Below the pieces are notes generated by a model that saw only the letters and a list, made by a program, of their open reading frames with translations, ran no database searches and had not been told where the DNA came from. From NCBI GenBank assembly GCA_017307915.1, contig JAFKGG010000368.1, positions 1 to 58,152 on the forward strand: a stretch of DNA of 58,152 nt. The letters run 5' to 3'. Source of the stretch: Burkholderiales bacterium (GTDB lineage: Bacteria; Pseudomonadota; Gammaproteobacteria; Burkholderiales; Burkholderiaceae_E). The position numbers and the translations under genes are program-made. Positions 7,676-53,340 of the stretch are shown here, piece by piece. Each line of letters opens with the position of its first letter. Position 1 is the stretch's first letter.

Positions 7676-8764
7676 TCACTGGCCATCAGCCGCCTGAGCA
7701 GCCTTGGGATGGTGGTAGGGATGCCGGTACTCCGCGCCGAGGCTGCTGGCATCGAGCCGTTCGAGCTGGCTGTCGTATTGTTCGAGAAAGCGGTCTTCGG
7801 CCGCGTAGTCGAACGCATCGCCCAGCGTCTTTTCGATCTCGCCCCCCGCCGGCGGCGGGTTGTTCAAATACCAGTCCACGGTTTCAGACATCGCCGCATC
7901 GAAATCCCACGGACATTCGTAGCCAAGCAGCGCCTGCGCCTTGGCCACCGAAACGATCTCGTGTTCGGATCGAGGCTCGCCGATGCCTTTGACGCGCAGC
8001 GAACGGCTGATACCCGGATAGAACGCCGGCAGCCGCGCGCGCGCGGGTACGCTGACCAATTCGATCTCAACGCCCATTTTCTCGGCGATCTTGCGTACCC
8101 GATCGGCATCGGACGGAACGAAGGTATCGGCCACGTTGAACACCTGGCCGTCGGACGCCTGCGCTTGATGGATCGCCAGCAGAACCGCGTGCGCGGCGTT
8201 GGCCGCATAGGCACGGCTGCGCAGCATCAGACCGCCGTCGACGACCAGCAAACGCCGGCGGCCGTCGCGTAGCCGGCGGATCGTCGACCAGTCGTTCGGC
8301 GCGAGCTGGCGCGGCCCATAGATGTTCGGATAGCGCATGTGCGTCAGCGAATACCAGCCGGCGGCATGCCCTTCGAGCAAGGCCTCTTCGGTTTCGTTCA
8401 TGCGGTCATACAGCTTCATGCCGCTGATCCGCGGGTCATCTTCGGTCGCCGCGCGCGACTCGATCGGGTAATACGTGGCCCCGCCCACCGTCACCAGCCG
8501 CTGCGTCTTGTCGCGCAACAGCTTGGGCATCAGCCGGATGCGGCCGTAAGTGGCCACCACGGTGTCGAAGCGCCTGCCCGACAGCGCGGCCGCCAGCGGC
8601 TCTTCGAAGTGCGGGTCGGTATGGATATGCTCGATCTCCGTGATGTAGGGCACTTCGTGCGTGCCTCGATGCAATACGGAAACCGTATGCCCGGCTTCGA
8701 TCAGACCATTGACGATGTAGGGGCCGGTGGGGCCGGTGCCCCCGATGACGAGAATATTGGCCAT
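7676..8764 (-). CDS. NAD-dependent epimerase/dehydratase-like protein (atypical SDR)
   Basis: This 362-residue extended short-chain dehydrogenase/reductase begins MANILVIGGTGPTGPYIVNG, with the nucleotide-binding GGTGPTG at residues 8-14. A conserved SLTHMRYPNIYGPRQ segment lies near 160-174, typical of nucleotide-sugar epimerases and CSP41-like proteins. The usual catalytic YxxxK is not obvious: the best candidate is KLYDRMNETE, with Asn where Lys is expected, so it may bind NAD(P) without standard SDR catalysis. It is the last gene of the long leftward operon, 60 bases after the rhodanese gene. What it does with the acyl-CoA and sulfur-type partners is not clear. Confidence 0.8.
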   Translation of the reverse strand: MANILVIGGTGPTGPYIVNGLIEAGHTVSVLHRGTHEVPYITEIEHIHTDPHFEEPLAAALSGRRFDTVVATYGRIRLMPKLLRDKTQRLVTVGGATYYPIESRAATEDDPRISGMKLYDRMNETEEALLEGHAAGWYSLTHMRYPNIYGPRQLAPNDWSTIRRLRDGRRRLLVVDGGLMLRSRAYAANAAHAVLLAIHQAQASDGQVFNVADTFVPSDADRVRKIAEKMGVEIELVSVPARARLPAFYPGISRSLRVKGIGEPRSEHEIVSVAKAQALLGYECPWDFDAAMSETVDWYLNNPPPAGGEIEKTLGDAFDYAAEDRFLEQYDSQLERLDASSLGAEYRHPYHHPKAAQAADGQ

Positions 8765-8824
8765 GTGTTTCTACCTTTCCGAGAAGAGTCGATCGACCCG
8801 CTATGACAATCGATCAAAGAGTGG

Positions 8825-10399
8825 TCAGCGCGCCGGCGCAGTGCCGTGCGCAAGCGCCTGCTCCCACGCCAGGTACTCGCGCGATTCCTGCGCCGATTGG
8901 CGCAATGCCCCGCGCCGCCGAAACGGATCGACGTCGGCCTTGGCATCGTCCAGACTGGCCTCGGCGCCATCGACTCCTTCCTGCAAGGCCGCGCCAAGCG
9001 CATTGACGTCGGTACCCAGCGCGATCGCGTCCACGCCCAGATGCCGCAGGCGGACGGCACCGCGATGAGCCTTGCGTGCGTCGCCGTCGGCCACCACCAG
9101 ACAGGCATGGCCCTGCAAACGGGCCTGCGCCTGCATTTCGAGCAGCCCCAACGGCAGGTTCAGCGATCCGGCCAGGTGCCCCAGCGCGAATTCGCCGAGC
9201 GGCCGAACATCGACGATGACGCGCCCTGCGGCGGCGGCCTCTTGCCAGGTACCGTGCCAAGCGGCGATGCCCGCGAGCTCTTGGGCCGCGGCCTGGGGCT
9301 CATCCCAGGTCTCACTGCCATAGGCGCAAGCCGACCCGGCCGCCTGCCAGGCCGGCTGCCCGCCGCTCAGCACCTGCGCGCCATAGCCCAGCTCGCGCAG
9401 CAGTGAAGCGGCGGCGATCGCATCGGCATCGCCCTGCCCCACCACGGTGATCGGCAAGCAGCGCACGGCAAAACGTTCCTCGGCGAGAAACTGCAATACG
9501 CTGCCTTCGACGTGGAACGCACCGGGAATGTGCCCGCGGCGGAACTGCTCCACGTCCCTGATGTCGACGATGTAGCCGGCCGCGCCGTGCAGCGCGGCCG
9601 CGAGATCGCCGGCAGCAATCAGCCCGATGCCGATGCTGCGCGCCCGATCATGAAAAAGAGCCTGTGCAGCGGCGACCGACGCAGACGAAGGCTCGGGCAG
9701 GCGCAAGCCCGGACCGCGCTCGAGCTTGTGTCCGGCATGCACCCAGGCCCAGGTGCCGTTTTCGACGGCGAACACGTTGCCATGCCCCATTGCCCGGAGC
9801 AGGCGGGTCATCAACAGGCTGCGCGTGCGCCCGGCGCAGTTGACGAAGACCCGTTCGTACCGGCCGCACAGATCCGCGGCCAGCGCGACGTTGGCGAATG
9901 GCGGCGCCCATGCCGCGCCCGGCAGATGCCCCTTCAGGAACTCCGCCTCGGTGCGCGAGTCGAGCAGCAGGACGCGCGAATCCCCGATGGCCGTCGCCAC
10001 TTCGTCTACGTCGACCGACGGTATCGCCTCGGCGGCCGCGAGCTGTTCGCCCAGCAGCTTGCCCTCGTAGCCCCAGCCGGTGGCCACTTCGCGCTGGTCG
10101 CGCTGCCACGCTGCGATGCCGCCACCGAGCACCGACACGTCGGAATAGCCCAGCGCCCGCAGCGTGCCCGCGGCCAATTCGTCACGCAGATCATCGGCAC
10201 CGCAAAGGATGATAGGAATCGCGGCATCGGGTACCAAGCGGCCCACTCTCGACTCGAGATCGCCGCGCGGCAGCGGCGTGCATCCGGGCAGATGGCATTG
10301 CCGGTATTCGCGCATCTCGCGAATGTCGAGCAAAGCCACCCGTGCCAGGCCGGCGCGGATGCGATCGACCTCGTCGGGCGTGCGCCGCGGCAGGTTCAT
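8825..10399 (-). CDS. Four-domain rhodanese-like protein
   Basis: This 524-residue cytoplasmic protein is made of four tandem rhodanese modules, at roughly residues 10-105, 125-225, 255-355 and 375-470. Each module has the LLDIRE/LLDSRT/IVDIRD/IVDVRP strand and the GHLPGA-type helix start. Modules 1 and 2 keep a Cys at the active-site loop (Cys66 in CGADD, Cys188 in CAGRTRS). Modules 3 and 4 have GQGDAD and ADGDAR loops without Cys and are probably catalytically dead. Rhodaneses carry sulfane sulfur as a Cys persulfide. The start codon overlaps the crotonase stop (ATGA). A sulfur relay or thiol-handling role in this acyl-CoA operon is inference. Confidence 0.9.
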   Translation of the reverse strand: MNLPRRTPDEVDRIRAGLARVALLDIREMREYRQCHLPGCTPLPRGDLESRVGRLVPDAAIPIILCGADDLRDELAAGTLRALGYSDVSVLGGGIAAWQRDQREVATGWGYEGKLLGEQLAAAEAIPSVDVDEVATAIGDSRVLLLDSRTEAEFLKGHLPGAAWAPPFANVALAADLCGRYERVFVNCAGRTRSLLMTRLLRAMGHGNVFAVENGTWAWVHAGHKLERGPGLRLPEPSSASVAAAQALFHDRARSIGIGLIAAGDLAAALHGAAGYIVDIRDVEQFRRGHIPGAFHVEGSVLQFLAEERFAVRCLPITVVGQGDADAIAAASLLRELGYGAQVLSGGQPAWQAAGSACAYGSETWDEPQAAAQELAGIAAWHGTWQEAAAAGRVIVDVRPLGEFALGHLAGSLNLPLGLLEMQAQARLQGHACLVVADGDARKAHRGAVRLRHLGVDAIALGTDVNALGAALQEGVDGAEASLDDAKADVDPFRRRGALRQSAQESREYLAWEQALAHGTAPAR

Positions 10400-11223
10400 C
10401 GCGGCGACTCGCTGCGGTACTGTTCGTCGCGCATCTGCACGCCTTCGCGCCAGTTGCCGGAGAACATCTTCTCGCGAACGCTCTGGCTTTCCTTGGAAAG
10501 AAAGCCGACCGCGCGAATCGCTTCGGAATGTTCGATCGCCACGGGCACGCCCATCTGATCGAAACAGAGGTTGCAGGCGCGCTTTTCGAGCGCCAGCAGC
10601 GTCACCGGAACCTTGGCGATGCGTTGCGCAATTTCACGCACGTGCTCGTCAAGCCGCTCCAGCGGCACCGCTGCGTTGACCATGCCCAGTTCAGCAGCCT
10701 CCTTGCCTGAGATCTGCGCGCCCATGAACAGCAGCTCTTTCGCTTTTCGCACGCCGATCAGCCACGGCCACATATGAACCAGGAAGCTGGCGCCGCCCAG
10801 CGAGCGCACCGTGATCTTGGCATCGTCGGCGGCGATCACCAGATCGCACTGCATCGCCAGCTCCAGTCCGATCGTGAACAGATTGCCCTGTATCTGCGCG
10901 ATGATCGGCTGCGGCGCCCGCCACATCACTTCGCGATAGCTGTGCCAACGATCATGCAGCCGATCGACTTCCTCGAACCATGGCGATTCGGTCGCGCTCG
11001 GAAAAACCTCGAGCGGTTCGTGCATGTCGTGGCCGACGCAGAACGACTTGCCCGCGCCCTTCAGGATGATGACGCTCACGTCGGTACGCGCACGCAGGGA
11101 ACGGATCATCTCGAAGATTCCATCCCACATCACGTTGGTCACGGCGTTGTGCTTGTCCGGCCGGTTCAGGGTGATCGTCGCGATCTTGTCGGAGACCTCG
11201 AGTTGCAACAGCTCGCTGCTCAT
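10396..11223 (-). CDS. Enoyl-CoA hydratase/isomerase (crotonase) family protein
   Basis: This is a 275-residue crotonase-fold protein. It shows ITLNRPDKHNAV at residues 17-28, the first oxyanion-hole segment SFCVGHDM at 60-67, and IGLELAMQCDLVIAADDAK at 118-136. Glu121 corresponds to Glu144 of rat enoyl-CoA hydratase. The position matching Glu164 aligns with an Ile in my manual alignment, so ordinary water addition is doubtful. Relatives use the fold for thioester cleavage, isomerisation or thiol elimination. It sits between the ABC receptor gene and the rhodanese gene, overlapping the latter by four bases, and shares the operon with an acyl-CoA ligase that could supply its substrate. Confidence 0.88.
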   Translation of the reverse strand: MSSELLQLEVSDKIATITLNRPDKHNAVTNVMWDGIFEMIRSLRARTDVSVIILKGAGKSFCVGHDMHEPLEVFPSATESPWFEEVDRLHDRWHSYREVMWRAPQPIIAQIQGNLFTIGLELAMQCDLVIAADDAKITVRSLGGASFLVHMWPWLIGVRKAKELLFMGAQISGKEAAELGMVNAAVPLERLDEHVREIAQRIAKVPVTLLALEKRACNLCFDQMGVPVAIEHSEAIRAVGFLSKESQSVREKMFSGNWREGVQMRDEQYRSESPR

Positions 11224-11281
11224 GGCTTGCCTTTCGTTTCGTATGCAGTCAATGCTCGGGGGAGCCGGTAACGCGCGGCCA

Positions 11282-12391
11282 TCAGGGGCGCCATGCGGCG
11301 GCGGTCCGCTTCAGGGCGTCGACGTCGGTTCGCCGCGCCGCCTCGTCCGCCATGCTCAGGTCGAACACGCGATCGATGTCGATCGCCTTCTTCGTGATGC
11401 CGTGGCGCAGATACAGGTCCTGCAGCTTGGCCAGCGCTTCCCGGTTCGCGATGCCCAAGCGGCCATCCGCCGACGGCGTGGCGAAGGCCCCCCAACTGCG
11501 CGTCAAGCCTTCGGCGGTTTCGGCGATCGCCTCCGGCAGCGGCGTGCCGCTCGGACGCTGATTGGGAAAGGCATTCCAATGCAGGGTCACGCCCATCGCA
11601 GGATTGGCCGCGCTCAGCACGATGCCTTCGTTGTAGCTCTTCAGGAAAGCCACCAGCGCGGGCCGGTTCTTCTGGATCTGCTCGGCCGACACCACCACTG
11701 CGAAGCCGTTGGGCAATTCGTCGAAGGCCGACGGCAGAAAGCGCATCCCCTGCGACACGCGGCGGGCGAACTGCGCGGTGATGCCGTAGTTCGCGCCATA
11801 GGCATCGATCTCGCCGGAACGGATCGCCGATGCCGCTTGTGCGCCAACGCCGACCGGCACCCAGCGAACATCGGCATCGGGATCGAGGCCGGCGGCCGCG
11901 ACGATGCCGCGGGCGAACAGATAACCCGCGGCAGCCAATGCCTGCACACCGATCCGCTTGCCCTTGAGTTCGGCGATCGTCTTGATCCGGCTGTCACCCG
12001 GCACGGCGATGTTCCAGACATTGGCCGCATCCAGCCGGATGATTCGCGCGTTCGGCGCGCTTGCGGCAACCAGGAACGCGGCTGAGGTGCCGCCGACGGC
12101 CACGTCGACCGATCCGGCAAGCGCCGCCTGCATCGACAGCGTGGCCCCCTGGGTGCCGGTCCACTTGGCCTGAATGCCGTTGCGCTCGTACAGCCCGCCG
12201 GCGATCGGCACGCCGATGATGTTGCCGTTATGGACACTGAGGATCGGGTCGCCGATCGAAACCGATAGCGTCTGCTTCGGCAGCGTCTGCGCCTGCGCCT
12301 GCGCCTCAAGGCCAGGCAAGGCGGCCGAACCGAGCACCGCAAGCATCCATCCGATCAGCGCACGCGTCGATGCATGAATCAAGTTCATCAC
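11282..12391 (-). CDS. ABC transporter substrate-binding protein (NitT/TauT, NMT1/SsuA type)
   Basis: This is a 369-residue secreted binding protein with an N-terminal signal peptide of about 30 residues ending near AQAQAQ. The mature part begins TLSVSIGDPILSVHNGNI and carries GSVDVAVGGTSAAFL and IAELKGKRIGVQALAAAGY, the pattern of SsuA/TauA/ThiY-like receptors for sulfonates, aromatic acids or pyrimidine-like solutes. The permease and ATPase genes lie immediately upstream in the same direction, giving a complete importer. Because acyl-CoA ligase, crotonase and rhodanese genes share the operon, an organic acid, perhaps sulfur-containing, is a reasonable guess for the ligand. Confidence 0.9.
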   Translation of the reverse strand: MMNLIHASTRALIGWMLAVLGSAALPGLEAQAQAQTLPKQTLSVSIGDPILSVHNGNIIGVPIAGGLYERNGIQAKWTGTQGATLSMQAALAGSVDVAVGGTSAAFLVAASAPNARIIRLDAANVWNIAVPGDSRIKTIAELKGKRIGVQALAAAGYLFARGIVAAAGLDPDADVRWVPVGVGAQAASAIRSGEIDAYGANYGITAQFARRVSQGMRFLPSAFDELPNGFAVVVSAEQIQKNRPALVAFLKSYNEGIVLSAANPAMGVTLHWNAFPNQRPSGTPLPEAIAETAEGLTRSWGAFATPSADGRLGIANREALAKLQDLYLRHGITKKAIDIDRVFDLSMADEAARRTDVDALKRTAAAWRP

Positions 12392-12421
12392 GATTCCTCC
12401 AAGGTAAGAATCCGCCCGCCG

Positions 12422-13210
12422 CTAGACACGGCTGCCGGAACGTTGCAGACCGCGAGTGATCATGCTCATCGTCAGATGCAGCACCATTCCCAGCGCCGAT
12501 AGCAGGATCAGCACGCCATACACCGCGGCCATGTCGCCATAGGTGGTGTTCAATGCGATCAGATAGCCCAGCCCATGACGGGCGCTGACCAGCTCGCCGA
12601 CGAGCGCTCCCAGAAACGCCAGCACCAGCGCCACGTCGAGGCTCGGCACGACGTAGGTGGTGGCGTTGGGAAAGCGCAGATGGCGCAGCTCCTGCCATTT
12701 GCGCGCTTCCATCATCCGCATCAGCGCGAGTTGATCCGGATTGATCGTGGTCAGCCCGGCCACCGTCGCCGAGTACACCGGAAAGAACGCCAGGAACGCC
12801 GCCAACGCGATCTTCGGCGCCAGCCCGTAGCCCAGCCAGGTCATCAGCAGCGGCGCGATCGCCACCTTCGGAAAAGTCTGGATGCCGAGAATGAACGGGT
12901 GAATGCCGCGACGCACGGTGGTCATGAACGCGAGCACGCCACCCAGCGCCAGCGCGATCACCACGCCGACCACGAAGCCGACGATCGTTTCGAGCAGCGT
13001 GACGCCGACGTGCAGCCACCAGCCGCGCTGCGTCAGCAGTCCGGCCACGAGCTGGCCGGCAATGTCTTCGAGCCGCGGCAGGATCAGCGGCGACACCAGC
13101 GCCAGGCGCGTCGCCGCTTCCCACAGGCCGATCAGCAGCAACAACGCGATCGCAAAGACCGCCACCGGCGGAACACCGCCGCCGGCGCTGCGAGCAAAGA
13201 CGAAAGCCAT
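12422..13210 (-). CDS. ABC transporter permease (NitT/TauT type)
   Basis: This 262-residue inner-membrane protein starts MAFVFARSAGGG and has about six hydrophobic segments. The ATPase-contacting EAA-like loop, near PDQLALMRMMEARKWQELRH, is followed by LRFPNATTYVVPSLDVALVLAFLGALVGEL, typical of SsuC/TauC permeases. I chose the Met at 13210, just 2 bases beyond the ATPase stop. A longer in-frame reading adds an arginine-rich, non-membrane-like stretch that is only antisense to the ATPase gene. It forms the transport channel of the importer together with the adjacent ATPase and receptor. Confidence 0.92.
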   Translation of the reverse strand: MAFVFARSAGGGVPPVAVFAIALLLLIGLWEAATRLALVSPLILPRLEDIAGQLVAGLLTQRGWWLHVGVTLLETIVGFVVGVVIALALGGVLAFMTTVRRGIHPFILGIQTFPKVAIAPLLMTWLGYGLAPKIALAAFLAFFPVYSATVAGLTTINPDQLALMRMMEARKWQELRHLRFPNATTYVVPSLDVALVLAFLGALVGELVSARHGLGYLIALNTTYGDMAAVYGVLILLSALGMVLHLTMSMITRGLQRSGSRV

Positions 13211-13212
13211 GG

Positions 13213-14070
13213 TCAGACTCCTGCGGTGGCCAAGGGCCCCGACGCGCTCGCGCTCGCCGGCTCGGCGTCGTCGGTGCCGAATGCCCGCCGCACCGCGGTG
13301 ATGGTTTCGTAGTAGGCATCGCCGGTTCGGCAAGCGGCGTGCCGCGGCCTGGGCACGCGCGAGGGCAGAATGCTGCGGATGCGCCCCGGGTGCGAGTCCA
13401 TCACCGCGATGCGGTCTGACAGGTAGACGGCCTCGGCAATGTTGTGCGTCACGAACAGAATCGTGGTGCGGCTTTCCGACCAGATCCGCAGCAGCTCGTC
13501 GTTGAGCGTCTCGCGGGTGAATTCATCCAGCGCCGAGAACGGCTCGTCCATCAACAGCAGATCGGGTGAAGTCACCAGCGCACGGGCGATCGACGCGCGC
13601 TGCTGCATGCCGCCCGACAATTCGCGGGGAAACTTCTTCTGATGCCCGCTCAAACCGGTGATCTCGAGCAATTCACCGGCGCGTTGACGAGCGGCGCGAT
13701 CGAGCGTGCCGGCGATCCGGTGCGGCAGCAGGATGTTGTCGAGCAACGAGTACCACGGCAGCAAGGTGGCGCTCTGGAACACGAAGCCCACTCGCCGCGT
13801 CGGCCGGGTCACCGGCTGCCCGTCGATCAGCACGCTGCCCGAGGTCGGCGCGAGCAGGCCGGCGACGATCCTGAGCAGCGTGCTCTTGCCGCATCCGCTT
13901 CGGCCCAGCAGGCTGACGAACTCGCAGCGCTGCACTTCCAGGCTGACGTCGCGCAATGCCAGATAGTCGGAGTCGGATCCCTGCGTGCCGAAACGCATGG
14001 TCACCGAACGGATGCTGATGCCGGCGGAATCGCGCGGCAAGGGCGCTGGAATGGGCATCGGTTCGCGCAT
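13213..14070 (-). CDS. ABC transporter ATPase (NitT/TauT type)
   Basis: This 285-residue ATP-binding subunit contains Walker A GRSGCGKST at about residues 56-64, the Q-loop VFQSATLLPWYS, the signature ELSGGMQQR, Walker B LLLMDEPFSALD, and the switch His in FVTHNIAEAV. All catalytic elements are intact. It energises uptake through the adjacent permease. The gene starts 9 bases after the acyl-CoA ligase stop, so transport and substrate activation are co-expressed. The final 20 or so residues are a low-complexity Ala/Ser-rich tail (AEPASASASGPLATAGV) beyond the conserved domain. Confidence 0.94.
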   Translation of the reverse strand: MREPMPIPAPLPRDSAGISIRSVTMRFGTQGSDSDYLALRDVSLEVQRCEFVSLLGRSGCGKSTLLRIVAGLLAPTSGSVLIDGQPVTRPTRRVGFVFQSATLLPWYSLLDNILLPHRIAGTLDRAARQRAGELLEITGLSGHQKKFPRELSGGMQQRASIARALVTSPDLLLMDEPFSALDEFTRETLNDELLRIWSESRTTILFVTHNIAEAVYLSDRIAVMDSHPGRIRSILPSRVPRPRHAACRTGDAYYETITAVRRAFGTDDAEPASASASGPLATAGV

Positions 14071-14079
14071 GTCGGTCGC

Positions 14080-15711
14080 CTATCGCGCTTCGGCGTCCAG
14101 GCCGAGCAATGCCATCGCGCGTCCGACCAGCGCGGGCTTCTGGATCTTCTCGCTGCCGGTGCGCGGCCATTCATCGATCGCGATCAGGTGGCGCGGTATC
14201 TTGAAGCTGGCCACGTCGGCGCGCAGCCGCGCCCGCAATGCCTCGACCGTCAACGATGTGCCGGGGAAGAACTCGACGAACGCGCACGGCACTTCGCCCA
14301 GCCGCGGGTCGGGGATCGGGACCACCGCGGCTTCGCGGATCTCGGGCTGCGCGCGCAGCAGGTTCTCGATTTCTCCCGCAGAGACGTTGAACCCGCCCAC
14401 GCGGACGATGTCCTTCTGCCGGCCATGGAAGTGCAGAAAGCCGGCTTCGTCGAGCCAACCGAGGTCGCCGGTGCACAAGCGTCCCTGCTCGTCCAGCAGC
14501 TCGCGGCTCGCATCGGGCCGCTTGTAATAGCCCGGCGTCACGACGTAGCCGCCCACGCGAATCTCGCCCAAGGCCCCGCAGGCACATGGCCCGCCGCCAT
14601 CGGGATCGACGATGTCCACGCTGACCCCCGGCAAGGGCCGGCCGACCGAAGCGTCGCACAAAGCCGGATCGTCGTCGGGCGAACACAGCGTCGTCATATG
14701 CGAGGTTTCCGACAGACCGTAGTGGCTCAGCACATGCGCCACGCCCAGCTGCCGCCGCAGAAAATCCTGCTTCGACGCCACGCCGGGCTGGAACAAGCCG
14801 AGCACCACCCGCAGCATCAGCGGCGGCAAGGCCGGGGTCTGCGCAAGCTCGTCGATCAGGTCGAGAACGTTGGTGTCGCTGAGCGCCGTGGCGGTGACGC
14901 GCTGCTCGGAGGCCACTTGCAGAAACTCGCGCGCGGCGAAACCTTCCTGCAGCACCAGCGTCGAGCCGCCGATCAGGCAGGCGGTTGCGCGGCCCAGACC
15001 CGCCGACGTGAACAGCGGCGCGCACAGCATGAACCGGTCGTCGGCCCGCTGGCCCCAGCGTTCGTTGATGCGCAACATGTTCAGCGTGGCGGCACCGTTG
15101 CGGATCATCGCGCCCTTCGGTAAAGACGTGGTGCCGGAAGTGAAGATGATGTTCAGCACGTCGTCGGAGCTCGCCTGCACCGGTTCGGCACCATCGGCCG
15201 GGCGCCGCATCAGCGTATGCAGCCCGATCGTTCCCGGCGACGGTTCGCGGGCCGCCGAGATCACCAGCGGTGTCGGCGACTTGCGCTCGCCGATCAATCC
15301 GAGCGCCGCGAGCAGGGCCGTATAGTCGATGTCCTTGAAACGTTCCGCGACGATCAGCGCCTTGGCGTCCGACAGATGCAGCAGTTGCGACAGATCCTGG
15401 CTGCGCAGACGCGTATTCAGCGGCACCAGCACCATGCCCGCGAGCGCGACGGCGAAGCGGCTCAGGATCCATTCGTAGCAGTTCGGCATCCATAGGCCGA
15501 CGTGGTCGCCGGCACGCAGGCCGCAAGTCCGCAGGCCGCACGCCAGCGCTTGCGCGTCATCGAACAGTTGCGCGAACGTGTGCCGTTCAGCGTGTCCATC
15601 GGCGTGGAAAACGACGGCATCCTTGTCGGCGAAGCGCCGGCAAACGTCGCCAAAGGTCTGCTGCAAGGTCGGATGCGTCAGCGATGCATCGAATGGCGTT
15701 GGTCGAGTCAA
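14080..15711 (-). CDS. AMP-forming acyl-CoA ligase
   Basis: This adenylate-forming enzyme activates a carboxylic acid with ATP and CoA. It has the P-loop IIFTSGTTSLPKG at about residues 188-200, YGLSETSH, the TGDLGWLDEAGFLHFHGR block, the hinge KDIVRVGGFNVSAGEIE, and the C-terminal catalytic Lys in GSEKIQK. No ATG is placed to give a full N-terminus. A TTG at 15711 overlaps the upstream TGA (TTGA), has AGGGAAG just upstream, and yields 543 residues, normal for the family, so I chose it. Longer readings in this frame run antisense-like through the MmgE/PrpD gene. The substrate is probably the acid brought in by the co-transcribed transporter. Confidence 0.9.
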   Translation of the reverse strand: MTRPTPFDASLTHPTLQQTFGDVCRRFADKDAVVFHADGHAERHTFAQLFDDAQALACGLRTCGLRAGDHVGLWMPNCYEWILSRFAVALAGMVLVPLNTRLRSQDLSQLLHLSDAKALIVAERFKDIDYTALLAALGLIGERKSPTPLVISAAREPSPGTIGLHTLMRRPADGAEPVQASSDDVLNIIFTSGTTSLPKGAMIRNGAATLNMLRINERWGQRADDRFMLCAPLFTSAGLGRATACLIGGSTLVLQEGFAAREFLQVASEQRVTATALSDTNVLDLIDELAQTPALPPLMLRVVLGLFQPGVASKQDFLRRQLGVAHVLSHYGLSETSHMTTLCSPDDDPALCDASVGRPLPGVSVDIVDPDGGGPCACGALGEIRVGGYVVTPGYYKRPDASRELLDEQGRLCTGDLGWLDEAGFLHFHGRQKDIVRVGGFNVSAGEIENLLRAQPEIREAAVVPIPDPRLGEVPCAFVEFFPGTSLTVEALRARLRADVASFKIPRHLIAIDEWPRTGSEKIQKPALVGRAMALLGLDAEAR

Positions 15712-17075
15712 CGTGAGGCTTCCCTGAATCGATGGACATGGAGCCGGTCGACGCCAGGCAGCGAGTCGAGGCGATCCACGGCCTGAATCACTTGCAGGGC
15801 TTCGTCCGGCGCGAGCGGATGCACGCCTTGCGACAGGCAGTCGTGCGCCTTGGCGAGCAGTTCCTCGTTCGACAACGGCGATGGCGGATCGCCGGGGGCA
15901 TGGTCGGCACGCAGCGCAAATTCGGCGCCGGCCGTCGTGCGCAGCGTCACGGTGCAGGCGCGCGGACTGTCGTTCGACGGATCGACCTCGACCGATACTC
16001 GCTCGGCCAGCCGGCGCACGGCCGGGTCGGCAATGGCCGCGGGTTCGAGATCGGCCACCCGCATGCCGCCGCGCTGGATCGCGCAGGCGATCGCGTAACG
16101 AATGCTGAACTGCGCGCCGACCTGGTCGCCGGGGGCGACGTCGAAAGGCGCGCCCACCAAGCCCGCAACGTAAGCCGATACCGAAACGCGCACGCTTGCA
16201 ACGTCGACCGGATGCAGCCCTTGCTGCCGCATCAATTGCTGCGCGGCCCAGATCGCGGCATGCGTGCAAGCGCAGCTCGGGTAGGCCTTCATGCTGCCGC
16301 CTTCGACCGCAAAGCGCGTGCCCAGTTCTTCCAGCAGCGCCGGCCCCTGGTCGGCTTGATACATCCGGAATAGGCCGTAGCGCCCTTCAAATATCTCGCG
16401 CGGCGCCGTCACCCCGGCAGCGGCCAGCAGAGCGGCCTCGATGCCTGCGGCAGCGGCCATACCCGAGGCGATCCGTTTGGCCAGGCTACGTTCCATGTTC
16501 AACTGCATCGTGCCGCCGGCCCTGGCAAACACGAGGCCGAAGGCGTGCGCGCCTTGCGTCGTATCCAGCCGCAGCAGGCTGATGGCCGCAGCGCAGGCAC
16601 CGAACGCGCCGAACAGCGGCGTATCCCACCAGCCGTCGCGGCCCAGGCCGGTGGCCGCGACCAGCCTGCAACCGATATCCGTGCCGACGACCTGAGCGGT
16701 GAGCAGCTCGGCGCCGGTCGCTCGCTGCTGCTCTGCCATCGCCAGCGCCGCCGGCACCACGCAAGCGTCGCTGTGAAAGCCGCCATGCAGCCCGTCGTAT
16801 TCCAGCGCCGCCGCGCTCATCCCATTGATCAATGCCGCCGACGACGCAGGCAAATAGCCGCCGAATCCCCAGACCGTGCTCTCGGCAGCGCCGCCACGAT
16901 CATGCTGCAACTGCCATACGGCCTGGCAACCCGGTGCCTGCGATCCTGCCCATCCCACCGCCAGCGTATCGAGCAGCGCGCGCTTGGCCGCGGCCCGCGC
17001 CGATGCCGGAATGTCGCCGAAGCGGACACGGCTCGCGTGCTGCGCAAGGCGTTCGGAAATGCTCATCGCTCGCAT
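15708..17075 (-). CDS. MmgE/PrpD family protein
   Basis: This 455-residue protein belongs to the family that includes 2-methylcitrate dehydratase PrpD and cis-aconitate decarboxylase. It shows the N-terminal helical domain with AKRALLDTLAVGWAGSQ, LINGMSAAALEYDGLHGGFHSDA near residues 85-107, and the MKAYPSCACTHAAIWAA block near 265-281 where PrpD proteins have their active-site region. A four-base overlap (TTGA) couples it to the acyl-CoA ligase. Members act on tricarboxylates and related acids as dehydratases, decarboxylases or isomerases, and the reaction here is unknown. An alternative start at MSISERLAQ, nine bases in, is equally possible. Confidence 0.88.
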   Translation of the reverse strand: MRAMSISERLAQHASRVRFGDIPASARAAAKRALLDTLAVGWAGSQAPGCQAVWQLQHDRGGAAESTVWGFGGYLPASSAALINGMSAAALEYDGLHGGFHSDACVVPAALAMAEQQRATGAELLTAQVVGTDIGCRLVAATGLGRDGWWDTPLFGAFGACAAAISLLRLDTTQGAHAFGLVFARAGGTMQLNMERSLAKRIASGMAAAAGIEAALLAAAGVTAPREIFEGRYGLFRMYQADQGPALLEELGTRFAVEGGSMKAYPSCACTHAAIWAAQQLMRQQGLHPVDVASVRVSVSAYVAGLVGAPFDVAPGDQVGAQFSIRYAIACAIQRGGMRVADLEPAAIADPAVRRLAERVSVEVDPSNDSPRACTVTLRTTAGAEFALRADHAPGDPPSPLSNEELLAKAHDCLSQGVHPLAPDEALQVIQAVDRLDSLPGVDRLHVHRFREASR

Positions 17076-17114
17076 CGCAGACTGCGCTCAGGAGTAGGCC
17101 GCGAGAAGGCGCCG

Positions 17115-18083
17115 TCAATCGGCCTTGGCGCCGGACAAGGCCACGATGCGGCCGTACTTGTCCAGTTCCTCGTTCAGGAAGGTGCGCAGCGCCTCAGGCG
17201 TGCTGCCGACCGATTCGGCGCCCAGTTCCTTGAAGCGTTCGCGAATCTTTTCGCTACGCACGATGCGCACGATCGTGTCGTTCAACTTGGCGACGATAGG
17301 CGCCGGCGTGCCGGCGGGCGCAAAGACCGCCACCCAGGAAGTCAGCGCGAAACCGGGCAACCCGGCTTCGCCGATCGTCGGCACGTCGGGCAACAGCGGC
17401 GAGCGCTGGGAAGCGATCGTCGCCAGCGGGATCACCTTGCCCGCCTTGATCTGCGCCAGTGCGGGAGCGATAGGCGAGAACAACAGTTTCGATTCGCCGC
17501 CGATCACCGCCGTCATCGCAGGACCGACCCCGCGATAGGGAACGTGCAACAGGTTGACCTGCGCCTGGCTGCGCAGCATCTCGCCCATCAGATGCGTCTC
17601 GCTGCCGACGCCAGCGGATGCGTAGTTGTAGGCCGAGGGCTCGGCCTTGGCGCGCTGGATCAGCGCCTTCAGCGAATCGATGCCGCTGCCGGGGCTGGCC
17701 ACCAGCACGTAGGCCACCTTCGACACCAGCGCGATCGGCGTGAAGTCCTTGACCGGGTCGTAGGGCAGGCTCGACGAAATGTGCGGCAGGATCGCGTGCG
17801 TCGCCGGGATGCCCAGCATCAGCGTATAGCCGTCAGGCTCGGCGCGCGCAGCGCTGGCGGTGCCGATGCTGCCGCCACCGCCGGTGCGGCTCTCCACGAC
17901 GACCGGTTGCTTCAGGAACTCGGTCATGCCCTGAGCGATCATCCGCGCCCACACGTCCGACGCGCCGCCGGGTGGGAATGCGTTGATCATCTTGATCGGG
18001 CGATCCGGATACGTCTGCGCGGCAGCGGGCCCACCGAGCAATGCCGTCAACGCAACGGCGGCCAAGGCTATGAACACCTTCAC
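17115..18083 (-). CDS. Bug/TctC-family periplasmic solute receptor
   Basis: This 322-residue receptor starts MKVFIALAAVALTALLGGPA and has a clear signal peptide cleaved near AAAQ. Family marks follow: TYPDRPIKM, FPPGGASDVWAR at about 37-48, SRTGGGGSIG, and VPYRGVGPAMTAVIGGE. It is the first gene of the ten-kb leftward operon that also encodes a complete ABC importer, so the operon has two uptake systems, or this receptor serves as a sensor. The upstream 197 bases hold the likely promoter. Confidence 0.92.
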   Translation of the reverse strand: MKVFIALAAVALTALLGGPAAAQTYPDRPIKMINAFPPGGASDVWARMIAQGMTEFLKQPVVVESRTGGGGSIGTASAARAEPDGYTLMLGIPATHAILPHISSSLPYDPVKDFTPIALVSKVAYVLVASPGSGIDSLKALIQRAKAEPSAYNYASAGVGSETHLMGEMLRSQAQVNLLHVPYRGVGPAMTAVIGGESKLLFSPIAPALAQIKAGKVIPLATIASQRSPLLPDVPTIGEAGLPGFALTSWVAVFAPAGTPAPIVAKLNDTIVRIVRSEKIRERFKELGAESVGSTPEALRTFLNEELDKYGRIVALSGAKAD

Positions 18084-18280
18084 GGCTGATCTCCTCTGGA
18101 TGATTTCTGTCGCCGTTCACGAAACCGCCGGCCCCTTGCGGGCTTGGGCGTTCGATCGGCTCACCAGTGTCATGCCAGATTGCAGCAGCCTGAAGCGCGA
18201 TTAACAAGCCTCAATGATTCGAATGATCGATAGCCTATTCCGATCAATAAAAATTGGCGGACCAGGCCGTGGAACGAAGG
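18084..18280. promoter_or_regulatory. Intergenic region upstream of the ten-kb operon
   Basis: No convincing gene is seen here. Positions 18200-18262 are AT-rich and should hold the promoter of the leftward operon starting at 18083. On the minus strand a TTGATC hexamer is followed after 17 bases by ATTCGA, only a weak sigma-70 fit. GGAGAT lies 8 bases ahead of the Bug start. Confidence 0.35.
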
Positions 18281-19474
18281 TCAGACCAGGTCGACCCGGA
18301 ATCGCTGCAACTTCTCTTCATCGAGCTCGATGCCCAGGCCCGGCCCATCCCCCGCGTGCATGTGTTTGCCGACGCGACGGATAGGCTCGGTCAGCACATC
18401 CTCGGCGAGAATCTCGTTGACCCCGACCGCCATCGGCCCCTCCAGAAGCGGGCCGGGCCACGCCGTCGCCAGATGCAAGGCGGCCGCGGTCACCACGCTG
18501 GCGCCGGGATGGTTGCCGGGAAAAATCCTGAGCCCCGCGGCACTGCCGATTTCCCAGAGCGCCTTGCAGCGCCATGCACCGCCGTTCTTGGCGATCTTCG
18601 TCTGAAAGACCGATGCCGCACGCTTGCGGATGACAGCCAGCAGATCTTCGGGCGCAGATACGCACTCGTCCGCCATCATCGGAATGTCATAGCGCAACGC
18701 CAATTCGGCCATGCCGTCCAGATCCCAGGGCGGCAGCGGCTGTTCGATGGCATCGAGGGGCAGATCCTTGACGCGGTTCATGAACTTCATGGCGGCGGCA
18801 AGATCCATTCCGGAGTTTCCGTCTGCCCGGATCGTCGCCGCTTCGCCCAATCCTTCACATAGCGCTCTGACTGCTTCGGCATCGCGAACGAGATCTTCGC
18901 CAACCTTCACGGTAAAACTGGTGAAGCCTTCCTCGAATCGGCTGCGTGCTTCCGCGACCAGCGCGCCCAGGTCCTTCTTGATCCCGAGCGTGATGCCCAC
19001 GGCAACCGACTCCCGCGCACGCCCGCCGAGCAATTCATAGGCAGGCACGCCGAGAATCTTGCCCTGCAGGTCGAGCATCGCATCGGCGATCGGCGCAATC
19101 GCATAGTTCGAATGCCACACCGCTTCTTCCAGATCGCTCAGAATGGCTGCAGCATCGAAAGCGCTGCGCCCGATGACGCGCGCCGCAAAATGGCCATGAA
19201 TGATCGAGTTCAAACTGGCCAGGGTCTCTCGGCTGCCCTGGCGCAACCAGGCCTGTGTTTCACCGATTCCGACCAAACCGGATCGGCTGTGCAGGCGAAC
19301 GATCAGAATGTCGATGCCAAGCCGCACGCCGCCGCTGGCGATCTTGAAGTCGCCTTTGAACGGCAAGCGGATCGGAATCGTCTCGATGCGGGAGATCTCC
19401 GCGTCGATGCGATGATGGCTCGCGCGGCGGACGCCATCGGCGGCAGGCAGGCTGCCGTGCTTCTTGTCAGACAT
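18281..19474 (-). CDS. Mandelate racemase/muconate lactonizing enzyme superfamily protein (MLE subgroup)
   Basis: This 397-residue enolase-superfamily enzyme should abstract a proton alpha to a carboxylate. The barrel motifs are visible: Lys190 in FTVKVG, metal ligands Asp218 (RADGN), Glu244 (IEQP) and Asp269 (MADE), and the second acid/base Lys293 in TKIAKNGG. In the usual KxK motif the first Lys is Thr here, leaving only the second. The layout fits cycloisomerase or racemase members of the MLE subgroup. Its ATG lies inside the end of the upstream MmgE/PrpD gene (8-base overlap), so the two are coupled. Likely partners are acidic C5-type compounds handled by the operon; the exact reaction is unknown. 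Confidence 0.88.
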   Translation of the reverse strand: MSDKKHGSLPAADGVRRASHHRIDAEISRIETIPIRLPFKGDFKIASGGVRLGIDILIVRLHSRSGLVGIGETQAWLRQGSRETLASLNSIIHGHFAARVIGRSAFDAAAILSDLEEAVWHSNYAIAPIADAMLDLQGKILGVPAYELLGGRARESVAVGITLGIKKDLGALVAEARSRFEEGFTSFTVKVGEDLVRDAEAVRALCEGLGEAATIRADGNSGMDLAAAMKFMNRVKDLPLDAIEQPLPPWDLDGMAELALRYDIPMMADECVSAPEDLLAVIRKRAASVFQTKIAKNGGAWRCKALWEIGSAAGLRIFPGNHPGASVVTAAALHLATAWPGPLLEGPMAVGVNEILAEDVLTEPIRRVGKHMHAGDGPGLGIELDEEKLQRFRVDLV

Positions 19475-20855
19475 CGAGTTCCTCCAATTGCCGGGTCAGC
19501 ACGCCGACGTCGTCGAGCCGGTCAAAGCCGACGACCGTGTCGAGAAGTTGCATCTGCCGCTCATGGCTCAAGATATCCGCGGTGATGGACAGGAACTTCT
19601 CGACGATCTGCTCGCGCCCCATCGGCCTTTCCCGGGTGCCCACGGAATCCGTCACGACGCATCGAAGTTCCCGGCCGTCTTTGAGCCTGACCTCGAATCC
19701 GGCCGGAAACTTCTTCGGAAACATGGCGTCGAGTTCCGGATCGATGCGCGCGTCAACCCGATCAGCCAACCCCAGAAGACCCGGATCATGCATCGCTGAA
19801 TCGGAAAAAGACGCCGGGTCGCGCGCATTACCGGTGATGGCCACGGCGACCGTATAAGGCAATGAATACTGCGCCGCCATGACCGATTTCGGCCGATACT
19901 CGAGGTGGCCATCGACCATCATGCGAGGGCCGAAGGCGGTGAGGCTTGCCACGTCATTGCCCGCCCACCGATCGTTGCGCCGACTTTCTTCGAGCGCATC
20001 GATCAATGCATGAAAGAATCGGCAGCACGCATAAGGCTTGATGCTGATCTCATCCAAGGCCCAGCGCTCGCCAAGCGATCGCGTCAGGCCGGTTCTGTCC
20101 GGCGCGGGACTGAACATCGAGATGAAACCGGTCTTGCTGTCGAGCGTGTTCTGCGGCCCCGTGAACCCCAGCCGAACCAGCTGCGATGCCAGAACCCCGC
20201 TATACGCCGGCCATCCGGCATGCAGCCGCTTGACCATGGTCCCGCTCGCATCCTCGGTGAACGCCATGCTGCCGGACGCCATCGAAGTCACGATTCCCCA
20301 GGTCGATCGAAGCTGCTCCGCTGACATTCCCAGCAGCACCGCCGCCGCCGTGCTGGAACCGAACACGCCGGACAACGCCGTCGGGTGAAAACCGCGGCTC
20401 ATCAGTTCGCGATTCAGCGCGGCGCCGATCCTTGTCATGGCTTCGTATCCGGCAATCGCCGCGGTCAATACATCGGTGCCGGAGCGCCAGCTCGACTGCG
20501 CCTGCGCGAGAGCCGCGGAGAAAACCACGGCACCGGGATGCGACATCGATTCATCGTGCGTGTCGTCGAGCTCGATGCCGTGGGCGATGGTGCCATTGGC
20601 CAGGGCGGCCAGCGCCGCCGATGCGCGCTGAGCGCCATAGACGACCGCTTCCGGTTTCGATGCCTCTGCCTGCACGTAGCGCGAGATCGACTTCGACCAA
20701 GGCGTTTTCAGTCCTTGAATCGAAACCGCAAGATGATCGATCAGCAGATCCTTGGCGCGCTCCCGGGTGGCCGAACTCATCGACCCCCGATCGATGCCGA
20801 CCAGAAATCCGGCCAACTCTTCCGTTTTAAGCATATCGAAGCCCTCGTCGCTCAT
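19467..20855 (-). CDS. MmgE/PrpD family protein
   Basis: This 462-residue member of the PrpD/cis-aconitate decarboxylase family shows LANGTIAHGIELDDTHDESMSHPG near residues 86-109 (His-rich active-site segment), MVKRLHAGWPAYSGVLAS near 205-222, and SIKPYACCRFFHALIDAL near 270-287. Possible reactions are dehydration, decarboxylation or isomerisation of a branched polycarboxylate. It overlaps the Bug receptor upstream by four bases (ATGA) and the MLE-type gene downstream by eight. It is clearly diverged from the second PrpD-like protein encoded 3 kb upstream, so the two probably do different steps. Confidence 0.88.
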   Translation of the reverse strand: MSDEGFDMLKTEELAGFLVGIDRGSMSSATRERAKDLLIDHLAVSIQGLKTPWSKSISRYVQAEASKPEAVVYGAQRASAALAALANGTIAHGIELDDTHDESMSHPGAVVFSAALAQAQSSWRSGTDVLTAAIAGYEAMTRIGAALNRELMSRGFHPTALSGVFGSSTAAAVLLGMSAEQLRSTWGIVTSMASGSMAFTEDASGTMVKRLHAGWPAYSGVLASQLVRLGFTGPQNTLDSKTGFISMFSPAPDRTGLTRSLGERWALDEISIKPYACCRFFHALIDALEESRRNDRWAGNDVASLTAFGPRMMVDGHLEYRPKSVMAAQYSLPYTVAVAITGNARDPASFSDSAMHDPGLLGLADRVDARIDPELDAMFPKKFPAGFEVRLKDGRELRCVVTDSVGTRERPMGREQIVEKFLSITADILSHERQMQLLDTVVGFDRLDDVGVLTRQLEELDV

Positions 20856-21844
20856 TCCGGCGTGATGCCGGCCTTTCTGGCGACGGCGGTATACAGTTTT
20901 GTCCGTTCGAGAATCGAAGCGGCGTATTCGTCAGGCGTGTTGGCCACCAGTATCGCGCCCAGCTTTTCCAGGCGATCGCGCGTCTCCGGGCTTTTGATGA
21001 TCGTCCTGAGTTCGGCGCTGAGCTTGTCGACGACGGGCCTGGGCGTTCCCGACGGCGCGAGCAAACCGACGATCTCGCTGATGTCGAACGCGGAAAGCCC
21101 CGCTTCGGCCATGGTGGGCACGTCGGGAAGCAACGACGAGCGATTGCTGGTCGTCACCGCCAGCACTCTGACGCGCCCGGATCGGGCGTGTTCGATCAAC
21201 GCAGCGATATGGCCGAAGGCAAACGTCAGACGCCCGCCGATCAGATCGACCGCCATCGGTGCGCCGCCTTTGTAGACCACGACCTGGGTATCCACCCCGG
21301 CTTGCTGCTTGAGCATTTCGGCAGCCAGATGCCCGGCACCGCCGAACACCGTTACGCCGACTGTCGCAGCATCCCGCTGCTTCTTCAGTAGTGCGAGCAG
21401 TTCCGCAACGGATTTGACCGGCGAGTCAGGGGTCACGGCAACCACCAACGGATATTCCATCAACAGCGAGACCGGTGCGAGGTCAGCCTGGCTGTCGAAG
21501 CCGGGGTTCTTGAACATCACCGGAAAGGTGTAGAAGCTGAATACGCTGGTCACGAAGGTGTAGCCGTCGGGTTTGGACCTTGCCACCTGCCGGGCACCGA
21601 TCATGCCGCCAGCGCCTTCACGATTCTCCACGATCACCGGCTGTTTCCAGACGTCTTCGAGCCCCTTACCCAGCAGACGGGCCGTGATATCGGCGCCGCC
21701 GCCCGGCGGAAACGGCACGACGATCCGAATCGGCTTGTTGGGATAGTCGTCCTTTGCGTGAACGGACCCGGCAAACGAGGTCGCGAGCGTCGCCCCGAGC
21801 AGGGCGATCAGGCTTCTTCGGGTCTGGATCGATCGATGCATCAT
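20852..21844 (-). CDS. Bug/TctC-family periplasmic solute receptor
   Basis: This 330-residue receptor starts MMHRSIQTRRSLIALLGATL, with a signal peptide ending near SVHA and a TRRSL run that could be Tat-like. Family motifs are YPNKPIRIVV, FPPGGGADITAR, NREGAGGMIGARQVA and VVYKGGAPMAVDLIGG. The Met at 21844 is preceded by AAGGAGG with 6-base spacing, a near-perfect ribosome-binding site. A reading extended by about 39 residues is arginine-rich, overlaps nothing useful and is rejected. It is translated just before a MmgE/PrpD protein, suggesting a branched di- or tricarboxylate ligand. Confidence 0.93.
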   Translation of the reverse strand: MMHRSIQTRRSLIALLGATLATSFAGSVHAKDDYPNKPIRIVVPFPPGGGADITARLLGKGLEDVWKQPVIVENREGAGGMIGARQVARSKPDGYTFVTSVFSFYTFPVMFKNPGFDSQADLAPVSLLMEYPLVVAVTPDSPVKSVAELLALLKKQRDAATVGVTVFGGAGHLAAEMLKQQAGVDTQVVVYKGGAPMAVDLIGGRLTFAFGHIAALIEHARSGRVRVLAVTTSNRSSLLPDVPTMAEAGLSAFDISEIVGLLAPSGTPRPVVDKLSAELRTIIKSPETRDRLEKLGAILVANTPDEYAASILERTKLYTAVARKAGITPE

Positions 21845-21923
21845 GAGTGGCCTCCTTGGTTGCCCTGTATGGGCTTTCTGTTGCTGCGCAGATGCGTGTC
21901 CGAACGTCGAAGCCCACACGGAA

Positions 21924-22778
21924 CTACGTGAAGGCGTCGGCCTGCATCGAAACGCTCCCATCCGCCAGAAGGCACCGTAATTCGACGGCGCCTGTCTTCA
22001 GCTCCCCGCATAGACTCAGCGACTGCCCCAGAATCGCCGGCTGCAAGCCGCGATAGACGAAACGGCTCAGCGGCCGATCGGCGATCTCGGCGCCGAACCC
22101 CGCCAACAGCGTTGCGATCAGCGGGCCATGGATCACGAGATTCGGGTAACCCTCGACGCCCCGGCAGTAATCCTGGTCGTAATGGATGCGATGACCGTTG
22201 AACGTCAACGCCGAATAGCGAAACAACATCGTCGAATCGGGCGTGACGGTTCGGCGTTGCGCCGTCGTTGCAATGGCGTCGCCCGCCGCCGGCACGGCGC
22301 GAGCGGTGCCCGAGCTGGCGCCCTTGTAGACGATGTCGTGCTCTTCGCGCAAGCAGCAGCGACCCTGTGTGAACACTTCGTGCAGCACGGTCACGAACAC
22401 CAGGTCGCCGCTACGCCCGCTCTTGTGTTCGACGCGCGTGACTTGTGAACGCCTTTCGGCCACCGAGCCCAGCGCTATCGGCTCGATGAACTCGACACGC
22501 CCCCCGGCCCACATCCGGTTCGGCAAGGGCACCGGCGGCAGGAAGCCGCCTCTGGCCGGATGGCCATCGCGCCCGAGACTCGCAGGAGGCTGTCCCTCCA
22601 GGAAATAGAGCCAGTGCCACAGCGGCGGCAAGGGCGCGCCCTCTTCCAGGCGCGGCCGCTCCAGGCCCAGCGTGGCCGCCATCAGATTGGCATGGCGAGT
22701 CGACAGGGTATCGCGCTCGACCTGCGAACGGCCGATCCAGGAACGCAAGTGAGCAAGATCCAAGGGAACAGTCCCCAT
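21924..22778 (-). CDS. Mesaconyl-CoA/itaconyl-CoA hydratase-like protein (double hotdog, MaoC-type)
   Basis: This 284-residue protein has two hotdog halves. The N-terminal half is FAS1-dehydratase-like, and the C-terminal half carries the hydratase-2 motif: FNGHRIHYDQDY at residues 193-204 (His199, Asp201) and EGYPNLVIHGPL at 209-220 (His217). This arrangement is that of 3-methylfumaryl-, mesaconyl-C4- and related CoA hydratases. The adjacent CaiB-type CoA-transferase could make the CoA ester. I start at 22778, where AAGGA precedes by 8-10 bases; a longer frame runs antisense through the CoA-transferase. Substrate class is inferred from family and context. Confidence 0.85.
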   Translation of the reverse strand: MGTVPLDLAHLRSWIGRSQVERDTLSTRHANLMAATLGLERPRLEEGAPLPPLWHWLYFLEGQPPASLGRDGHPARGGFLPPVPLPNRMWAGGRVEFIEPIALGSVAERRSQVTRVEHKSGRSGDLVFVTVLHEVFTQGRCCLREEHDIVYKGASSGTARAVPAAGDAIATTAQRRTVTPDSTMLFRYSALTFNGHRIHYDQDYCRGVEGYPNLVIHGPLIATLLAGFGAEIADRPLSRFVYRGLQPAILGQSLSLCGELKTGAVELRCLLADGSVSMQADAFT

Positions 22779-22806
22779 GTGGAATTCCTTGTCCGGGTAA
22801 AACGGC

Positions 22807-23934: not shown

Positions 23935-23946
23935 GGTGTCCTCGGA

Positions 23947-25308: not shown

Positions 25309-25346
25309 GAAAAAAGAAGGGGGTTACGCATACGAACGTCGAGCGC

Positions 25347-43735: not shown

Positions 43736-43745
43736 GGAAAAGCGA

Positions 43746-53257: not shown

Positions 53258-53340
53258 ATCCGGACGAGGCGACGCCTTTCTTTGACCACCGCCCGCGCGT
53301 GCGAAGTCTGTGGGCGTACTTGATTGCATGGAAACCTTCG

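Follow-up and report, generated by a model that had tools for sequence, protein, structure and literature searches.

The DmdB/DmdC/DmdD set for demethylation of dimethylsulfoniopropionate includes an AMP-forming coenzyme A (CoA) ligase and a crotonase, and DmdD has two catalytic glutamates. A second point of comparison is the family of the Pseudomonas aeruginosa thiosulfate sulfurtransferase 1yt8, which we take to be PA2603 and in which four rhodanese domains stand in one chain of about 520-540 amino acids (aa). In the available text of PMC12947264, the PA2603 homologue tst clusters with 3mdo in P. protegens CHA0, and in that of PMC5373536 the mercaptosuccinate dioxygenase clusters of Advenella and Variovorax include a rhodanese gene. 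Here we describe a stretch of 58,152 nucleotides from a Burkholderiales bacterium (assembly GCA_017307915.1, contig JAFKGG010000368.1), the whole of which we call the window, with a leftward run of nine genes at 7676-18083 that encodes a Bug-type receptor, an MmgE/PrpD-family protein (PRPD1), an acyl-CoA ligase, a three-gene ATP-binding cassette (ABC) importer, a crotonase, a four-rhodanese protein (RHOD4) and a short-chain dehydrogenase/reductase (SDR). All of these families had been named in an earlier reading of the DNA letters (the original prediction), and Pfam finds every one of them in this single run.

The gene set brings known families together in a new way within known CoA-dependent acid catabolism, and judging by titles and the beginnings of abstracts we did not recognise it as described in the open-licence literature. 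We favour, with a probability of roughly 0.45, the reading that the run is a CoA-dependent acid catabolic operon in which a PA2603-type sulfurtransferase handles sulfur released by the pathway, and that the substrate is probably sulfur-bearing. A carboxylic acid would enter via the ABC importer, the Bug protein being a possible second receptor, and the MmgE/PrpD protein would isomerise, dehydrate or decarboxylate it. The ligase would convert the acid to its CoA thioester, on which the one-glutamate crotonase may catalyse an enolate-type step, and the SDR could contribute a redox or epimerisation step. RHOD4, through Cys188 of its second domain, would pass on the sulfane sulfur released by the pathway or make thiosulfate from sulfite. 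We infer every one of these reaction steps, as well as the substrate and its sulfur content; sulfur chemistry in the operon is plausible, if unproven.

RHOD4 and the neighbours of its family

The AlphaFold model of RHOD4 (predicted local distance difference test score, pLDDT, 89.4) matches 1yt8 over the whole chain (template-modelling score, TM, 0.82; 548 columns; 26% identity in the structural alignment), and 1yt8 was also matched by phmmer (3e-42), with the CxGRTRS loop aligned in domain 2. The four rhodanese modules that had been proposed are real, as judged from this fold match and from four Pfam stretches; with all four in one chain, RHOD4 belongs to the known PA2603/1yt8-type family and is a predicted sulfurtransferase. 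A C[AS]GRTRS loop occupies domain 2 in all eight aligned family members, RHOD4 included, and these members were not selected on the loop motif. Domain 1 of RHOD4 has a cysteine (C66) in a loop whose length differs, and at the loop position of domains 3 and 4 there is none, so that the comparison of the loops gives four rhodanese modules with a single canonical active site, Cys188 of domain 2. In contrast to 1yt8, to which its identity is low, RHOD4 has no neighbouring thiol dioxygenase and sits on a long branch of the family tree: it groups with the proteins of loci L030, L024 and L019 (SH-aLRT 99 for the four rows), its end branch is 2.16 and its placement is unsure.

A genome scan for relatives returned at least 597 stretches that encode one at E<=1e-3, not all of which need have four domains. 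The family profile matched over more than 380 residues in 79 of the best 80 loci, which represent several phyla; since the scan used the catalytic loop as its pattern, conservation of the loop in those 80 loci is by construction and lends no support. We found no physiological role assigned to the four-rhodanese family in the open-licence literature searched.

To describe the neighbours of these genes we used 88 loci, comprising L009-L016, L018 and 79 of the best 80 scan loci; a length filter dropped L065 and L017, the latter truncated at a contig end and adjoining a dioxygenase. The best 80 having been selected with the catalytic-loop pattern, this is not a random sample, and because only 61 of the 88 loci have at least 5 kb of flank on both sides, the neighbour counts are to be read as minima. 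In 43 of the 88 loci the four-rhodanese gene has a thiol-dioxygenase-type gene no further than 1.5 kb away, either adjacent to it (34 loci, 32 with one on the same strand) or in the same open reading frame (ORF; 9 loci), and two further loci, L011 and L015, have a TauD-type dioxygenase gene nearby. Organosulfur genes are thus frequent neighbours of the family, which supports this much of the sulfur hypothesis, and the published clusters are broadly in line with it. A thiol dioxygenase next door is a frequent and non-defining trait of the family, and the window lacks it. The window resembles the Mdo/Msdo clusters of Variovorax, Advenella and Pseudomonas in its rhodanese-type sulfurtransferase gene (available text of PMC5373536 and PMC12947264, in which the Advenella cluster also has a LysR regulator and an ABC importer), but differs from them in having no thiol dioxygenase and, within the operon, no desulfinase-type acyl-CoA dehydrogenase.

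Two observations on this family stand on their own. The loci with both genes in one ORF (L043, L045, L046, L058, L060, L063, L067, L087 and L093; 9 of 88) appear to encode fusions of a thiol dioxygenase with a four-rhodanese protein. Genes resembling PrdB/GrdB (D-proline/glycine reductase components; scores below curated cut-offs) adjoin the four-rhodanese gene in L014 (1999-2910) and lie about 3.5 kb from it in L046 (15104-16063), and a CaiB gene is present in both loci.

The PrpD/four-rhodanese neighbourhood

The original prediction did not propose a connection between PRPD1 and four-rhodanese genes, but we found that the PrpD/four-rhodanese neighbourhood recurs in other genomes. When PRPD1 was compared with 72,556 plasmid records, two matches were obtained at E<=1e-60, both on Variovorax plasmids (SRS16 and PBL-E5), and both plasmids carry a four-rhodanese gene within 10 kb of the matched PrpD. 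Four-rhodanese genes of Candidimonas, Variovorax and two further genomes have a PrpD of this type no more than 10 kb away. Conversely, the PrpD of Candidimonas nitroreducens (L036) gave 30 matches in the genome that contains the window (the host genome), with PRPD1 the best at 303 bits and the next at 173. By our own arithmetic, six four-rhodanese genes in 6.11 Mb would by chance leave any given gene with one of them inside 10 kb in about 2% of cases. Among the RHOD4 loci, a PrpD is found within 10 kb in 4 of 4 that have a PaaK-type ligase and in 5 of 83 others (L041, of 4.5 kb, was omitted), and the Fisher p of 5.7e-5 is overstated, given that the four loci are related by descent, that PrpDs from two of them went into the profile, and that flanks are short at many of the 83.

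The clusters with PaaK-type ligase (L009, L102, L032, L033 and L036) resemble the window in their PrpDs, which at 39-40% identity to PRPD1 are the best among the fetched loci, and share with it a four-rhodanese gene, a CoA ligase, Bug receptors and, in most, SDRs. They differ from it in the PaaK type of their ligase, in their acyl-CoA dehydrogenases and in RHOD4 proteins of other branches. In the region shared by L009/L102, L032, L033 and L036, the PaaK-type ligase is 61-65% and the acyl-CoA dehydrogenase 66-73% identical to that of L036; aconitase X is found in three clusters, and flavin reductase and IclR genes in some. Of these clusters, L009, L032, L033 and L036 showed no crotonase in the vicinity of the rhodanese gene, and the one in L102 is about 20 kb distant. 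As a separate observation, this cluster is conserved across alpha- and betaproteobacteria. One acyl-CoA dehydrogenase of the L032 cluster, ACAD-A, was considered as a 3-sulfinopropanoyl-CoA desulfinase and rejected, as it scored 172.9 of the 600 needed and three other models scored higher.

A wider interpretation, which we regard as rather unlikely, is that MmgE/PrpD and four-rhodanese proteins form the core of an undescribed class of organosulfur acid pathway in which CoA activation replaces the thiol dioxygenase. Two or more versions of the class would exist, one being the ligase/crotonase operon of the window and another the clusters with PaaK, acyl-CoA dehydrogenase and aconitase X in Variovorax, Candidimonas and others. 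Clusters that combine a four-rhodanese protein, CoA-activating enzymes and this particular PrpD with no thiol dioxygenase could reveal the role of a widespread family, and may expose a CoA-dependent route for sulfur-containing acids.

Sulfur-bearing or sulfur-free substrate

The original prediction followed the logic of DmdB/DmdD, in which ligase and crotonase would release a thiol or sulfide from a CoA ester by elimination and RHOD4 would take the sulfur. The run indeed has an AMP-forming CoA ligase and a crotonase, as does DmdB/DmdC/DmdD, and RHOD4 stands in the same run, but the operon has no DmdC-like gene. The crotonase keeps the first catalytic glutamate (E121) but lacks the second and the loop around it, as judged from an alignment with proteins of L070, L082 and other loci in which no DmdD sequence was included; a one-glutamate crotonase could still support an E1cB-type beta-elimination. 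Pfam assigns none of the operon's genes to the acyl-CoA dehydrogenases, and the profile for that family matches only one ORF of the window, at 53299-55596 on the other strand. The best NCBIfam models for the crotonase, PRK08272 (188 bits) and PRK08290 (184 bits), stay below their cut-offs of 257 and 280, and its top solved matches, 3t3w and 3ome, are named only enoyl-CoA hydratase (best 60 of 131 rows). For the ligase, the top model is FadD3-type (317.8 bits, below the cut-off of 657); among solved proteins it is closest to a fatty-acyl-CoA synthase, a malonyl-CoA synthetase/benzoate-CoA ligase chimera, a feruloyl-CoA synthetase and a malonyl-CoA synthetase, and no entry named DmdB appears among the best 60 of 192 rows. 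Ligase, crotonase and four-rhodanese gene share one strand in none of the 88 other RHOD4 loci, and L042 is the only locus where a FadD-type ligase and a crotonase accompany the four-rhodanese gene, the crotonase being on the opposite strand and 4.6 kb away. As far as could be seen, the trio is not a conserved module. The absence of both the second glutamate and an acyl-CoA dehydrogenase, together with the failure of the trio to co-occur, weakens the Dmd-like scheme to the point where we consider it improbable; taken together with the reading we favour, it makes a sulfur-bearing substrate about an even bet. As an aside, the ORF at 53299-55596 is 765 aa long and carries two acyl-CoA dehydrogenase Pfam sets, apparently in tandem.

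The importer had been described as SsuA/TauA-type, and an ABC importer is present, but all its components miss the curated SsuABC/TauABC cut-offs: SsuA_fam reaches 83 of 163.5 bits, TauC 62.4 of 342, SsuC 58.7 of 347 and the taurine ATPase 195.7 of 357. A sulfonate importer was therefore rejected as evidence, the more so as similar importers occur in the host genome in settings free of sulfur genes. The closest solved relatives of PRPD1 in a PDB sequence search are IDS-epimerase 2hp0/2hp3 (1e-34) and cis-aconitate decarboxylases. IDS-epimerase is a sulfur-free dicarboxylate enzyme. As a PrpD 2-methylcitrate dehydratase, PRPD1 scores below the cut-off, with 25.7 of 950 bits for the sole NCBIfam model listed.

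These comparisons bear on a lesser but serious possibility, namely that a sulfur-free mono- or dicarboxylic acid is degraded via its CoA thioester and that RHOD4 was recruited for sulfite, cyanide or persulfide housekeeping or is a chance passenger. The likeness of PRPD1 to IDS-epimerase fits this alternative, and so does a paralogous run on contig C83 of the host genome (L121:7244-18620), in which an importer, PrpD, crotonase, thiolase, OB-fold protein and CoA-transferase are encoded. This run shares with the operon the type of importer (identities of 54% for the ATPase, 46% for the permease and 32% for the binding protein), a PrpD and a crotonase (29%), but has a CoA-transferase and a thiolase in place of the ligase, and no rhodanese match was obtained in the 19.9 kb fetched. 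Also consistent with a sulfur-free acid, a second NMT1-family binding protein of the window (43707-44873) lies near Rieske and LigB aromatic genes; it belongs to the same Pfam family as the binding protein of the operon, and the two gave no BLAST match.

Several results weigh against the sulfur-handling operon that we favour. Since the run on C83 does without a rhodanese, importer, crotonase and PrpD give no evidence for sulfur, and RHOD4 is the only one of the nine genes that points to it. A profile for thiol dioxygenases of the cysteine dioxygenase family had no match at E<=1e-3 among the ORFs of the window, genes of this kind being present elsewhere in the host genome (C387, C230), and in the available text of PMC12947264 deletion of tst in P. 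protegens had no significant effect on 3-mercaptopropionate levels, a result that also suits a sulfur-free acid. In the tree RHOD4 is not an orthologue of the PaaK-type RHOD4 proteins, to which the copy on contig C114 of the host genome is closer (57.6% identical to that of L032), and the acyl-CoA dehydrogenase of the PaaK-type clusters has no close match in the host genome (best 26%), which counts against the PrpD/RHOD4 link. Finally, strict limits were reached by the host genome only, both for RHOD4 (E<=1e-60; 200 relatives and 399 genomes of the order) and for the crotonase (1e-45; 399 genomes of the order) and the ligase (1e-100; 300 genomes of the order). On the other side, the start codon of RHOD4 overlaps the stop codon of the crotonase gene, so that the two are probably co-translated, and the PrpD/four-rhodanese neighbourhood seen elsewhere likewise speaks against a sulfur-free acid. 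Should the sulfur link fail, the operon would be one more importer/PrpD/CoA operon in a genome with 30 PrpD matches.

Transcription of the run and its surroundings

From first to last gene, the joints of the run measure 39, -4, 9, 2, 30, 58, -4 and 60 bp (Table 1). The four-base overlaps, of which several had been proposed, number two, at PRPD1/ligase and at crotonase/RHOD4. A scan for promoter- and terminator-like sites listed none in the gap upstream of the first gene, and in the scanned region as a whole gave 2 promoter-like sites (2.1 expected) and 5 terminator-like sites (12.1 expected). With no consensus site in the gap and site numbers at or below chance, we infer operon status from strand and spacing only. 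That the nine genes form two or more adjoining transcription units, with the RHOD4/SDR end unrelated to the ligase/PrpD end, seems very improbable to us: the spacing ahead of the crotonase (58 bp) and the SDR (60 bp), and a minus-strand site within the RHOD4 gene that resembles a promoter (10237-10209, with site numbers at chance level), would suit such a division, and at the strict limits no second genome offered a gene order for comparison, but all nine genes share one strand, two joints overlap by four bases and the sole minus-strand terminator-like site listed falls inside the permease gene (13162-13146).

Table 1. Features of the nine-gene run and the region upstream of it, in window coordinates
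Feature	Coordinates	Strand	Basis
Bug/TctC-type periplasmic solute receptor, GTG start	17115..18083	-	Pfam TctC 3.4e-65
MmgE/PrpD-family protein (PRPD1)	15708..17075	-	Pfam
AMP-forming acyl-CoA ligase, TTG start	14080..15711	-	Pfam AMP-binding 8e-72, on the longer ORF 14080-16269
ABC importer ATPase	13213..14070	-	Pfam ABC_tran 2.8e-34
ABC importer permease, start read at 13210 in its frame	12422..13210	-	Pfam BPD_transp_1 1.7e-23
NMT1/SsuA-like periplasmic binding protein	11282..12391	-	Pfam NMT1 7.2e-14; TIGR01728 83 bits
Crotonase with one catalytic glutamate (E121)	10396..11223	-	Pfam ECH_1 2.3e-35
Four-rhodanese sulfurtransferase, predicted (RHOD4)	8825..10399	-	Pfam, four stretches, 1.5e-44
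Cys188 codon, CAGRTRS loop, RHOD4 domain 2	9836..9838	-	position computed by hand
Extended SDR, NAD-dependent epimerase/dehydratase family	7676..8764	-	Pfam Epimerase 1.3e-12
197-bp gap preceding the first gene, likely promoter place	18084..18280	strandless	spacing
Upstream run: enolase-superfamily, MmgE/PrpD, Bug-like, FAS1_DH-like, CaiB, MmgE/PrpD, Bug-like	18281-26339	-	Pfam; for the Bug-like genes (20852 and 25347), BLAST alone

Beyond the gap the minus-strand run resumes. When the DNA of 7676-26339 was compared with 17 other genomes of the genus, the matches listed were short patches, the longest of about 810 bases, with identities of 63-81%. The region is therefore not shared at the DNA level, and the contig may be a contaminant of the 521-contig assembly. 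A first scan of contigs with RHOD4 gave 21 pattern-matching stretches, none of which was confirmed, from records that may omit those near the host genome.

The host genome (G000, 6.11 Mb, 521 contigs) encodes six four-rhodanese proteins, on contigs C115 (RHOD4 of the window), C114, C125, C325, C387 (cut by the contig end) and C230. These six stand beside 30 MmgE/PrpD matches in 6.1 Mb, and the genome is larger than its 17 listed genus relatives (2.6-4.7 Mb).

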